Positions 1 through 6,067 of a stretch of 64,000 nucleotides of DNA are shown here, piece after piece. The translations under genes were made by a program, and so were the position numbers. The DNA lies in contig NZ_JAPDOB010000001.1 of the NCBI RefSeq assembly GCF_026013565.1, positions 1,266,178 through 1,330,177 of the forward strand, read 5' to 3'. Source of the DNA: Sphingomonas arvum. Its GTDB lineage: Bacteria > Pseudomonadota > Alphaproteobacteria > Sphingomonadales > Sphingomonadaceae. How positions within the stretch are numbered: the stretch's first letter is position 1; each line of letters opens with the position of its first letter. Under the pieces are notes generated by a model. That model was given only the letters and a program-made list of their open reading frames with translations, did no database searches and had not been told where the DNA came from.

Positions 1-768
1 AGGCACGCCAGTTACGAAACAGATGATCTTGTCGCCTGTCTGCTTGGCATTCGCGATAGCGCTGCTGATGAAGCTGGCAGTCGTGCTGAGATTGTCTGCA
101 CCTGCTTCCGATCGTGAAATCTCATGAACGTCGTGGCCGCGGTAAAGGGCTTGTGCAGCCTCAATGATTGTTGGCGTGGGTTTGTAACGCCCTGCTGCCC
201 ACCGAAGGGGTTCGCGGTGAACTCCAGCTCCACCTGTGGGCGCTGCAGTCGACCACACTTGCATTATCTCGTCTAGGTCCGCTCCGTTTGTCTGGACCAG
301 TTCAGCAAGTCCATCGAACCCCCATTCTGGCCTACCCGAGCTGTCGAGAACGGCTTCGGTGGCAATCAATATCGGCACAATCGGAAGTTCGTGGCTGGTT
401 TCGTGAAAGTGCTTCAGATCCAGTGCGTAGCCAACGGTTTGATTGATTGCGTGCTTGTCGAAAGAGGCAGCTCCAACCTTGTATTCGAGGACGAAGATCA
501 CCCCTCGGTAGACAACCAATGCATCAGCTCGCCGGCCCATGCGCGGGATCATGAACTCCAGAAACATATGAGCTTCAGGCAGCTTGGCCGCCGTCTGCTT
601 CAGATGCTGGATTTGATACAGCCATGCTCCGCGCTGAGCTGGCTCCAGTGCAAAGGGAAGGTGGCTGGTTAGCGCCCCCAAAATCTCATTAGGATTGGCG
701 CTGTAAAACGTGGCCGCGTCAGCGTCGAAGTAGGCGCGCTGTAATCTCGACCTGCCTACATCTGCCAC
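1..768 (-). CDS. PD-(D/E)XK nuclease-like / DUF2075 (Schlafen-like helicase) protein, N-terminal part only
   Basis: The minus-strand frame from a GTG at 768 stays open for 256 codons to the window edge, so the 3' part is missing. The start is fixed by an in-frame TGA directly upstream and a GGGAGG ribosome binding site at 774-779, 5 nt away. Residues 71-97 have the pattern of a PD-(D/E)XK nuclease core: E71, D82 and an E95-Y-K97 triad after a hydrophobic strand. The visible end reads IICFVTGVP, which is how the Walker A strand of DUF2075 proteins begins (GVPGAGKT), so the ATPase domain should follow outside the window. DUF2075 proteins are predicted DNA/RNA helicases that often lie in defence islands and mobile elements. 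The family call is from motif recognition and is fairly firm; its role here is inference. Confidence 0.8.
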   Translation of the reverse strand, partial: MADVGRSRLQRAYFDADAATFYSANPNEILGALTSHLPFALEPAQRGAWLYQIQHLKQTAAKLPEAHMFLEFMIPRMGRRADALVVYRGVIFVLEYKVGAASFDKHAINQTVGYALDLKHFHETSHELPIVPILIATEAVLDSSGRPEWGFDGLAELVQTNGADLDEIMQVWSTAAPTGGAGVHREPLRWAAGRYKPTPTIIEAAQALYRGHDVHEISRSEAGADNLSTTASFISSAIANAKQTGDKIICFVTGVP

Positions 769-1330: not shown

Positions 1331-1657
1331 GTGCGACAGTCGAGCTTAGTTGGATTGTCCGCTTTGCTGTTCTTTATCGATGGTCCGCTCAGGCCAGCCT
1401 CCGCCCACCCCGGAGGATTGAACGCGGAAGGCTGTCACAGCAATCGCAAGGCTGGGGGCTGTCACTGTCAAGACGGTTCGTCTTCAAGCTCACCTGCTTT
1501 CTCTATGGTCGTTCGGTCTTCCAAGGGCGGCAACGGTGGCGGCGCCTTCCGCAACTGTTCCACCGCACGCGCTGCGGGAGCGGCTCCGGTCCGTGCTGGC
1601 GATCCGGGCTATGGGTGCCATCTAGATCGAGACGGCGAGGGAGTGGGTTGCGAATGA
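1331..1657 (+). CDS. Secreted Excalibur-domain protein with N-terminal His/Cys motif
   Basis: This 108-residue protein starts at a GTG preceded by a purine-rich GGGGGAAA. An N-terminal signal peptide (residues 1-25, ending ASA) leads into HPGGLNAEGCHSNRK and GGCHC, a His/Cys-rich motif seen at the N-terminus of many bacterial Excalibur or nuclease-associated proteins. A Gly/Ser linker connects to a C-terminal Excalibur domain with LDRDGEGVGCE. The stop (TGA 1655-1657) overlaps the ATG of the nuclease gene in an ATGA arrangement, so the two are probably made together. In other bacteria Excalibur and SNase domains are commonly in a single chain; here they look split. Role as partner of the nuclease is inference. 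Confidence 0.75.
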   Translation: MRQSSLVGLSALLFFIDGPLRPASAHPGGLNAEGCHSNRKAGGCHCQDGSSSSSPAFSMVVRSSKGGNGGGAFRNCSTARAAGAAPVRAGDPGYGCHLDRDGEGVGCE

Positions 1658-2163
1658 GCATTGGGTTTCTTGGACTCTTCGCGCTTGCAGCAATCCACCA
1701 GGGTGCATCAGCTCCGCAGACCGACTTCGGAGTCAGGACTGCCCCAGGCGGTTTCAACGAAAGCCTCCGGTCCGTTGAGGTGGTCCGCGGAGGCAGCTCG
1801 GTGAGTAAGCGCTCCGACAGGTTTTCCTGCCAGGTGGCGAGTGTCACGGACGGCGATACGTTCCGCTGCGCTGACGGCACCCGCATCCGCCTGTCAGCCA
1901 TCGACACGCCAGAAATGCCGGGGTCTTGCCGACCTGGCCGTAGTTGTGCGCCGGGCGACCCCTTCAGGGCAAAAGCCACGCTCGCGAACCTGATCTCCAA
2001 TCGGACGGTTCAATGCGAGGCGTCGGGAAAGAGCAATAATCGTGTGGCTGCATGGTGTTCGATCAACGGGGCAGATCTGAGCTGCGCGATGTTGCGAAGC
2101 GGCCAGGCAATCAGGCTTGCTCAGTTCGACAGAAATGGGCGGCTGACACGATGCGCGAAATAG
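1654..2163 (+). CDS. Exported thermonuclease family protein (SNase-like)
   Basis: This 169-residue protein has an N-terminal hydrophobic export signal, a low-complexity spacer and a staphylococcal-nuclease (OB-fold) domain from about residue 55. Expected active-site pieces are present: DGDTF, then RIRLSAIDTPE (the Arg, Asp and catalytic Glu of the family) and a later Arg in SNNRVAAW. These enzymes are calcium-dependent, sugar-nonspecific nucleases; export implies it acts on DNA or RNA outside the cytoplasm. The ATG at 1654 overlaps the preceding Excalibur stop by 4 nt, and its own 3' end overlaps the next gene by 13 nt. An upstream in-frame GTG at 1615 lies inside the previous gene and is less likely. 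Confidence 0.88.
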   Translation: MSIGFLGLFALAAIHQGASAPQTDFGVRTAPGGFNESLRSVEVVRGGSSVSKRSDRFSCQVASVTDGDTFRCADGTRIRLSAIDTPEMPGSCRPGRSCAPGDPFRAKATLANLISNRTVQCEASGKSNNRVAAWCSINGADLSCAMLRSGQAIRLAQFDRNGRLTRCAK

Positions 2164-3848
2164 AAGCAGACCTACTCCGTCCTGTCCGCTTCTACACCGC
2201 TACTGATATTGTCGGCGCCGGTTGCGCGGCTCCGGCCCAGCCAGGCATATATGCTTGGTATTTCAACACCATTCCAGGCAACATCGACGTGTCTGGATGC
2301 CATGTTCACCACGGAAGAACCCTTCTCTACGTTGGTATCTCACCTTCAAAGCCGCCGACTAACGGCAAGCCGCCAAGCAGCTCTACGGTCAGGCGACGGC
2401 TTCAGACGCACTTCGGCGGAAACGCGTCCGGCTCAACACTGAGACTAACGTTGGGGTGCCTTCTGGCGGACGAGCTTGGCATCCAGCTACGCCGCGTTGG
2501 AAGCGGTGGGCGCTACACCTTCACTAATCCGGGAGAACGTAGGCTTGATGATTGGATGGCCGCGAACGCTTTCGTTGTGTGGCACGTTTGTGAGCAGCCG
2601 TGGAAGGTGGAGGAGGAGGTTCTGGCCAGCGGCTTGCCATTGCCATTGAACATCTCTGGCAATCCCTGTGCAGCTCACTCCGAATATCTTTTACCCGTGC
2701 GCCGCTCAGCTCGTCTGGGCGCAGACCAGCTGCCGGTAATCAGCGACAACGGGGGACCGCGAAGGGTTCCGGCAAAAAGCGCCGTTGAGAGCCTGAGGGT
2801 GGAGCCAATCAGAGCGGCAAAGCCAGCGGACCAGAGCAGCACCGAAATGTCAGACGCCCACCAACGGCTCAGGAGCTTCCTGACTAGCGAGATGCGGATG
2901 TCGCATATCTATCAGCCCGTGATGCTTAAGTGCCTTCTCTCGGCTGGCGGCTCCGCAGATCGGACGGCAATCGCCCGAGCAATCCTTGAACACGATCCCT
3001 CGCAGGTCGAGTATTACGAGCAGATCGTGCAGAATATGGTCGGGCGCGTCCTCACCGCAAAGCGCGACTTGGTTCGTCGAGACGGTAGGGCATACTACCT
3101 GATTGGCCGTGAACAGCTATCGGACAGTGAGAAGCGGGACCTGATCTCCATCTGCGAAGACCAGATCGACCGCTACTTAGAGGCGCGTGGCAAAGCGATC
3201 TGGGAGCATAGGCGGCGGCAGGGGCGGCTCATCTCCGGCAGCGTTCGGTACGAAGTCCTGAAGCGTGCGCGGTTCCGCTGCGAGCTATGCGGCACGCCGG
3301 CTGACGAGAAGGCGCTAGAAGTCGATCACATCATCCCGCGCAATCACGGTGGGTCCGACGACATCATCAACCTTCAGGCGCTCTGCTACACCTGTAATGC
3401 CGCAAAAAGAGATCGCGACGACACGGACCTCCGGGGCAACTCAAAGATCTATGACGAACGGGAAACTGGCTGTCTGTTCTGCGAGGTAGGCGAGCGAAAC
3501 ATGATTGCTGAAAATCGCCTCGCATTTGTTCGAAGGGACGGCTTCCCCGTTACGGAGCTACACACCCTGGTCATTCCTAAGCGCCATGTGAGCAGCTACT
3601 TCAACCTTTCGCAGCCAGAGCTGAATGCCATTCACCAGCTACTCGCTGAGGAGAAGATGCAGCTTGCGGCAGCAGACCGCACGATCGTGGGTTTCAACAT
3701 TGGCATGAACGACGGAGCGGTAGCTGGCCAGACGATCATGCACTGCCATGTTCACCTTATCCCACGCAGGGCAGGGGACGTTGCAGAGCCGCGTGGAGGC
3801 GTCCGCCACGTTATTCCAGGCAAGGGCAACTATGAGAGCAAGTCGTAG
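2151..3848 (+). CDS. GIY-YIG / HNH endonuclease / HIT triple-domain fusion protein
   Basis: I start this 565-residue protein at the ATG at 2151, inside the end of the nuclease gene. Residues 30-190 form a GIY-YIG nuclease-like domain: GIY at 32-34, YVG at 60-62, an Arg/Lys-rich helix and an acidic EEEVL helix followed by PLPLN. Residues 370-420 are a classical HNH endonuclease: zinc knuckles C377-x2-C380 and C412-x2-C415-N and the DH pair at 392-393. Residues 441-560 are a HIT domain with C441-x2-C444 and the nucleotide-binding triad H531-x-H533-x-H535. HNH-HIT proteins occur on their own; the added GIY-YIG module with a Pro-rich linker is unusual. The reading frame is continuous, so a frameshift artefact is unlikely. 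No signal peptide, so it is probably cytoplasmic. Substrate unknown. Confidence 0.85.
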   Translation: MREIEADLLRPVRFYTATDIVGAGCAAPAQPGIYAWYFNTIPGNIDVSGCHVHHGRTLLYVGISPSKPPTNGKPPSSSTVRRRLQTHFGGNASGSTLRLTLGCLLADELGIQLRRVGSGGRYTFTNPGERRLDDWMAANAFVVWHVCEQPWKVEEEVLASGLPLPLNISGNPCAAHSEYLLPVRRSARLGADQLPVISDNGGPRRVPAKSAVESLRVEPIRAAKPADQSSTEMSDAHQRLRSFLTSEMRMSHIYQPVMLKCLLSAGGSADRTAIARAILEHDPSQVEYYEQIVQNMVGRVLTAKRDLVRRDGRAYYLIGREQLSDSEKRDLISICEDQIDRYLEARGKAIWEHRRRQGRLISGSVRYEVLKRARFRCELCGTPADEKALEVDHIIPRNHGGSDDIINLQALCYTCNAAKRDRDDTDLRGNSKIYDERETGCLFCEVGERNMIAENRLAFVRRDGFPVTELHTLVIPKRHVSSYFNLSQPELNAIHQLLAEEKMQLAAADRTIVGFNIGMNDGAVAGQTIMHCHVHLIPRRAGDVAEPRGGVRHVIPGKGNYESKS

Positions 3849-5948: not shown

Positions 5949-5998
5949 CTGTGTTGACATCGCAGGGGTCGCAAGTTCAATCCTTGCCACGCCCACCA
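5949..5998 (+). other. 3' half of tRNA-Val(GAC): probable attachment site of the element
   Basis: The segment has a complete anticodon arm (CTGTG / TTGACAT / CGCAG, anticodon GAC at 5956-5958), variable loop GGGTC, a perfect T arm (GCAAG / TTCAATC / CTTGC), the acceptor strand CACGCCC, discriminator A and an encoded CCA at 5996-5998. Upstream there is no canonical D arm: 26 nt with no usual D-stem separate it from a possible 5' acceptor GGGTGTG. Tyrosine recombinases commonly integrate into tRNA 3' halves with crossover in the anticodon region, leaving exactly such a fragment. I therefore read it as an att site rather than a working tRNA; a decayed tRNA gene is the alternative. Confidence 0.7.
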
Positions 5999-6067
5999 AT
6001 TCCCCTTCCTCTCCGGTAGTGCTCACGCACCCTTGCTCGCGCGGTGAATGCCGTTAGCAGGGCGGGG

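Follow-up and report, generated by a model that had tools for sequence, protein, structure and literature searches.

Type IV enzymes of the SBD-HNH kind, such as SprMcrA, ScoMcrA and EcoWI, carry a winged helix, the sulfur-binding domain (SBD), N-terminal to an HNH nuclease. The sulfur pocket of SprMcrA is formed by Tyr31, Gln32, Tyr78, Pro79 and Ala82 from helices 2 and 4 (excerpts of PMC7470945). Enzymes with the SauUSI layout instead consist of PLD, helicase and DUF3427 (excerpts of PMC3874153). A GIY-YIG nuclease in modification-dependent enzymes has already been proposed, since EVE domains fused to GIY-YIG are reported in putative enzymes of this type (excerpts of PMC7641849). Among HIT enzymes, HINT1 converts dGMPS with release of H2S (excerpts of PMC8775712), aprataxin deadenylates DNA (excerpts of PMC6043908 and PMC4530458), and ThsC of Thoeris II was suggested by its authors to be an off-switch (excerpts of PMC8565338).

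Here, we analyzed a 64,000-nucleotide stretch of the Sphingomonas arvum genome (contig NZ_JAPDOB010000001.1; hereafter, the window), in which a single gene joins a GIY-YIG domain, a winged helix, an HNH domain and a HIT domain (Table 1). We judge the chances to be about even that its product is a restriction nuclease of a type IV-like and probably modification-sensing kind, with the gene riding as cargo on a mobile defence island.

Table 1 Features of the fusion gene and its surroundings in the window (res, residues of the 565-aa protein)
Feature	Position	Strand	Basis or remark
PDC-S41-like candidate defence gene, N-terminal part (255 aa scanned)	1..768	-	C-terminal part lies left of the window
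Weak SNase-like ORF upstream, below the Pfam cut-off	1615..2163	+	Overlaps the fusion-gene start by 13 bp
GIY-YIG / winged helix / HNH / HIT protein, 565 aa	2151..3848	+	ORF and Pfam
GIY-YIG domain (PF20815), res 1-200	2151..2750	+	Pfam, alignment, model
Linker, res 201-232, low model confidence	2751..2846	+	Structure model
Winged-helix module, res 233-360, MRMSHIYQPVM motif, candidate SBD-like fold	2847..3230	+	Alignment, model
HNH domain (PF01844), res 377-422	3279..3416	+	Pfam
HIT domain (PF01230), res 449-541, HCHVH triad	3495..3773	+	Pfam
PRGGVRHVIPGKGNY tail, res 547-565, marks this HIT subfamily	3789..3845	+	Sequence comparison
Island right end, 57-bp direct repeat (96.5%) of the tRNA-Val(gac) 3' part	5949..6005	+	

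The gene starts with ATG and is free of stops. Its frame stays open upstream from 2052 (598 aa), and the stand-alone GIY-YIG relatives start close to the Met at 2151 in the alignment. The other five frames of 2052-3848 contain 17-25 stops apiece. A sequencing frameshift or a chance ORF was ruled out, because 1695 stop-free coding bases and two profile-supported halves share one frame; the frameshift that the original prediction had named as its possible undoing was looked for, and the gene is uninterrupted. Against the 71%-identical core of Sphingomonas daechungensis, dN was 0.24 and dS 1.66, the latter near saturation. The predicted combination of GIY-YIG, HNH and HIT in one chain was confirmed by Pfam, with all three domains above their gathering scores: GIY_YIG_2 at residues 32-184 (E 9e-29), HNH (E 7e-14) and HIT (E 3e-16).

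The key residues, also predicted to be intact, are indeed conserved. G32, Y34, Y60, G62, R81, R83, H87, E154 and N167 are invariant in the seven aligned GIY-YIG sequences, and the HNH Cys, Asp, His and Asn as well as the His of the HIT triad are invariant in all 19 aligned core sequences. One relative outside this alignment (L013/L146) has Gln in place of the middle HIT His. The profile, together with the GIY, YIG, Arg, Glu and Asn residues, places the N-terminal part among the GIY-YIG nucleases (PF20815), disposing of the doubt that it might be something else; likewise, the HxHxH triad and the profile place the C-terminal part among the HIT hydrolases. A fourth module, the conserved winged helix at residues ~233-360, had been overlooked. 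The linker lies approximately where the stand-alone GIY-YIG relatives end and the stand-alone cores begin, and the fusion joint coincides with the start of the latter. In the full-chain model the HIT part is of low confidence, and a full-chain Foldseek search gave no match below E 0.06; ScoMcrA is in its list at 29-34% identity, probably by way of its HNH domain. Before the SNase-like ORF, two ORFs at 861-1226 (the one compared with profiles) and 1331-1657 carry Excalibur-type calcium-binding motifs.

No Pfam family matched residues ~229-360 at E<=1. The motif MRMSHxYQPxM (MRMSH-I/V-YQP) is strongly conserved among relatives, and the module, folded alone from 17 sequences, was modeled as a winged helix with a mean pLDDT of 82 that drops below 50 over the final 21 of its 141 residues. 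When the Foldseek candidates were aligned with the isolated domain by VIA-align, the SBD of SprMcrA (7ccd_B) ranked first (Z 9.1, rmsd 2.8, 106 residues), followed among SBDs by ScoMcrA (Z 8.6 and 8.2) and Hga (Z 7.9), with SBDs at ranks 1, 4, 5 and 8. ORC/Cdc6 winged helices tied with them (Z 8.9, 8.7 and 8.0), and in the full-chain run ORC2 came first (Z 9.5) and the ScoMcrA SBD scored Z 8.2. Foldseek of the module against the PDB returned nothing at E<0.001, and the winged-helix profile had no significant match among PDB sequences. Among viral proteins, its best Foldseek matches were a pair from phages, 847 and 850 residues long (TM 0.61-0.63, E 0.001-0.002), one of them named DUF262-containing.

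At the proposed position of the sulfur pocket, with the register set by the motif and helix position rather than by residue-level structural alignment, helix 2 of the module begins with Tyr254-Gln255, a pair found in all 18 aligned sequences having residues there. Helix 4 carries Met296-Val297-x-x-Val300, the Met and Val300 being present in 19/19 sequences; at position 297, that of the key SBD proline, 13 of 19 including the window protein have Val and six have Pro. Comparison by hhalign of the winged helix with two SBD fragments only gave a probability of 1.9% in a register different from the proposed one, and when the comparison was repeated, 170 of 200 shuffles equalled or exceeded the real score. 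Because this profile comparison fails, the SBD-like character of the modeled winged helix is a lead and not a membership.

Searches for SBD relatives were negative within their range. PADLOC PDLC03662, used as an SBD stand-in, was found in 0/21 genomes and also in 0/14 controls; the HKPVLLL DNA pattern occurred at 14 loci in 299 genomes, nine with a readable frame and none with an HNH motif. The SBD fragments had no match in the plasmid collection, nor did a ScoMcrA fragment in the 299 genomes in a run without a positive control. Of the phosphorothioate genes, DndC and DndB were searched for in the window's own genome and neither was found, which is as expected for an attack on phosphorothioate DNA and equally expected otherwise. 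Separately, a short broken winged-helix remnant was seen in Sphingomicrobium lutaoense (L012, 7992-8147; L026), apparently at the same place as in a genome of the window's genus.

Judged by sequence, the winged helix-HNH-HIT core is a family of its own that spans at least three bacterial phyla and also occurs in IMG/VR contigs. As a stand-alone protein of ~330 aa, it was seen in S. daechungensis, in those IMG/VR contigs, and in metagenome-assembled genomes that bear the labels Sphingomonadales, Gammaproteobacteria, Elusimicrobia and Bacillota. A class-wide search of 385 genomes at 1e-20 gave 13 matches: the window genome, two plain cores, two of one genus lacking HNH, one HIT-DUF3427, one HIT-PLD-helicase-DUF3427, one HIT adjoining an HNH_4 gene, and five short HIT frames with no HNH seen within the ~3 kb examined. 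The winged-helix module occurs in 5 of 398 phylum genomes, the window's own included; the others have frames of 341-362 residues and one broken copy, leaving no room for a GIY-YIG domain. Among 397 family genomes the only full-length match was the own genome, and the triple GIY-YIG/HNH/HIT layout was seen once.

We counted 25 core loci (numbered with the prefix L). This count leaves out L189 and L045 (a copy and a near-copy of L044), L010 (cut at a contig end), L040 (contig edge), L048 and L187 (= window), and the fragments L012/L026, L015-L017 and L019; the genes of L064 and L066, like those of L046 and L047, are nearly identical to each other and do not count as independent. Besides the window, 22 of the 24 loci have the three core motifs in one frame, the gene being broken in L009 and L063. 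In L051 and L058, which belong to one genus, the winged helix and HIT are kept and HNH is absent, arguing from sequence against HNH being always needed.

The HNH domain matched Cap5 (Z 8.2, rmsd 3.3 over 80 residues) and EcoKMcrA (Z 7.7) in fold, and the GIY-YIG domain matched R.Eco29kI (3mx4_F; Z 6.5, rmsd 5.2 over 143); the window GIY-YIG profile had no significant match among PDB sequences. These folds, all with middling scores, agree with the predicted restriction-like effector.

Pairing of GIY-YIG with the core recurs, because three other loci carry three different GIY types. In L042, from IMG/VR, the core is followed by a GIY_YIG_2 gene with a 4-bp overlap; in L049/L144, a T5orf172 GIY-YIG gene lies 10 bp downstream of the core (PADLOC PDC-S57, 3e-67); and in L066, a third GIY-like ORF directly downstream was recognized by its motif alone, with no Pfam, PADLOC or PDB match. 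The L042 GIY groups with those of P2-like prophages (support 97/91), and the window GIY falls outside this group, not sister to that of L042 and with its position unresolved in the tree. The window core, in turn, is sister to that of L004 (100/100), the 71% relative, where no GIY-YIG was found in the 17 kb covered. These trees indicate that the pairing probably had more than one origin. Of 29 viral GIY_YIG_2 loci, L042 was the only one with the core; the remaining 28, scanned for its motifs, showed none. Several stand-alone GIY_YIG_2 genes (L167-L183) were noticed by eye as cargo beside an apparent P2-like prophage tail gene D.

The HIT subfamily marked by the PRGGVR tail is also joined to other nucleases. 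In L152 (1192-4686, minus strand), such a HIT is fused to PLD-ResIII-DUF3427, that is, PLD-helicase-DUF3427, in a protein of 1165 aa that matches the mREase_IV profile at 2.5e-112. HNH genes adjoin HIT on four of nine plasmids with close relatives, with Pfam HNH_4 above the cut-off in L032, L033 and L154 and below it in L035; the other five have no nuclease neighbour. These fusions are just as compatible with a HIT acting on DNA ends or on the products of cleavage as with the nucleotide signal of the original prediction. In phage phiSASD1 (L039, 5042-6369), a PAPS-reductase-like gene immediately precedes a PRGGVR-type HIT gene, and a similar pair ~1 kb apart was seen in L097. A PP-loop motif scan of 81 loci detected HIT beside a PAPS-reductase-like gene only in phiSASD1 (L039 = L115) and L097, too few cases, and this link was set aside.

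The island around the gene spans ~17.7 kb, from 11.7 kb left of the window to 6005, and its bounds are set by the 57-bp direct repeat derived from the 3' part of tRNA-Val(gac). The full gene for this tRNA sits 11.7 kb before the window begins, beside a tyrosine integrase identified by eye, and the GC of the island is lower. Among the genes it carries are a HamB-like helicase (6e-35), a gene whose in-window part matches PDC-S41 at 2.5e-77, a resolvase recognized by eye, and an NTPase with pentapeptide repeats. On this sequence context, the fusion gene is cargo of a mobile island with candidate defence genes. Two small genes of unrecognized kind precede the HamB-like helicase.

When the neighbours were checked for defence genes, as the original prediction had suggested, such genes were found on the island and at other core loci, a context that also fits a restriction-like effector. 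At 16 of the 25 loci, at least one neighbour matched PADLOC at 1e-6 or better (window, L004, L005, L007, L008, L043, L046, L047, L064, L065, L068, L085, L144, L146, L188 and L191), a count from hand-picked neighbours without a background rate. Nine window proteins or part-proteins and one to three neighbours at each of 23 other loci were scanned, and none in L044; some of the matched families are general (methylases, HNH), and the match in L144 is the GIY gene itself. The nine loci without a match are L006, L009, L041, L042, L044 (not scanned), L063, L066, L145 and L190. A Cas9 gene lies beside the core in L005 and L046; L047 carries a gene near-identical to that of L046, but with a DNA methylase and TIR-NLR beside it. 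PDC-S41 is near the core in L007 and L043, McrBC in L146, PbeA in L191, PD-Lambda-4 in L065, and an MzaE-like gene with a methylase and Vsr in L085.

If the protein is a restriction nuclease, the winged helix would dock on DNA and read a mark in the backbone or a base, the McrA-like HNH would cut beside it, and the GIY-YIG nuclease, gained by fusion, would make a second or opposite-strand cut. In what is the weakest link of the proposal, HIT might then strip a nucleotidyl or thio-nucleotide group from the ends left at the cut or from nucleotides set free by cleavage, which would prevent religation or allow the products to be reused. The evidence in hand for restriction comprises the domains, the intact catalytic residues, the mobile defence context, the recurrent GIY-YIG pairing and the joining of HIT to another type IV-type enzyme. 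By analogy, HINT1-type dGMPS chemistry would suit a phosphorothioate-linked role, which for the window HIT is speculation. A further extension, which we regard as quite unlikely, is a so far unrecognized HIT-coupled branch of type IV restriction, in which the PRGGVR-tailed HIT would be the post-cleavage module shared by several modification-dependent nucleases of unrelated kinds (SBD-like winged helix-HNH, SauUSI-like and HNH_4 pairs). In the SBD-like branch, HIT would act on thio-nucleotides derived from cleaved phosphorothioate DNA, yielding nucleotide and H2S in the manner of HINT1 with dGMPS, or would take adenylate off nicks and thereby block resealing, and GIY-YIG would make nicks into double-strand breaks.

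Signal gating, which builds on the original prediction, seems unlikely to us; here a nucleotide signal of the Ap4A, cyclic or ADP-ribose type would be bound or degraded by HIT, and the nucleases would thereby be switched on or off. The PADLOC ThsC profile does match the window HIT (1.4e-9), and the HNH fold resembles the nucleotide-gated CBASS nuclease Cap5; however, the ThsC match may be general to any HIT protein, and no signal synthase was recognized in the scan of nine proteins or part-proteins from the island. ThsC itself was rejected as an identity, the match being taken as a general HIT one, and the ThsA/ThsB partners had no match in the same scan against PADLOC. The fusion or adjacency of HIT to several DNA nucleases and the activity of aprataxin could also befit a repair or recombination enzyme of mobile elements, whose HIT would remove 5'-AMP from failed ligations while HNH and GIY trim or resolve DNA. 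The neighbours recognized in a scan aimed at defence genes are nevertheless defence-like, and the module is patchily distributed among the phylum genomes, making this reading distinctly improbable in our estimate. Lastly, a GIY-YIG cargo gene may have fused by accident with an independent HNH-HIT gene without joint function, as the single sighting of the triple layout, the lack of GIY-YIG near the closest core relative and the 28 viral GIY_YIG_2 loci without a core might suggest. Every catalytic residue checked is, however, kept in both halves, and three other loci have a GIY-YIG gene next to the core; we consider an accident very doubtful.

Compared with known systems, GIY-YIG, HNH and HIT are each familiar, and their joint layout looks undescribed within the open-access literature searched, in which neither the GIY-HNH-HIT layout nor a HIT-nuclease pairing or HIT/type IV link was met; the main text of the SBD-HNH screen (PMC7461809) does not mention GIY-YIG, the HIT domain or a histidine triad. 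ThsC, MccH and HINT1 also belong to the HIT family but stand alone in other settings, MccH (excerpts of PMC7157772) and HINT1 being likened from descriptions and not by sequence; a microcin-C-type role like that of MccH was considered for the window HIT on this basis and not adopted. The GIY-YIG domain resembles R.Eco29kI over its whole length, unlike it in the middling Z, the large rmsd and the lack of a significant PDB sequence match. SauUSI-type enzymes have a homologue (L152) fused to the same HIT subfamily, whereas the window protein has another nuclease and, by Pfam, no PLD, helicase or DUF3427. The SBD-HNH enzymes differ in lacking the added HIT and GIY-YIG, in having Pro where the window protein has Val in the pocket, and in showing no profile-level kinship of their winged helix, as judged from two SBD fragments; they share with it a winged-helix module N-terminal to HNH, and SprMcrA is the top domain-alone fold match, whose sulfur-pocket Tyr-Gln pair recurs in the window protein in the proposed register. 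If the restriction reading is true, HIT chemistry would be tied to the restriction of marked DNA, and the core would constitute a new reader-nuclease family with testable substrates, namely phosphorothioate, m5C/hm5C or 5'-AMP DNA.
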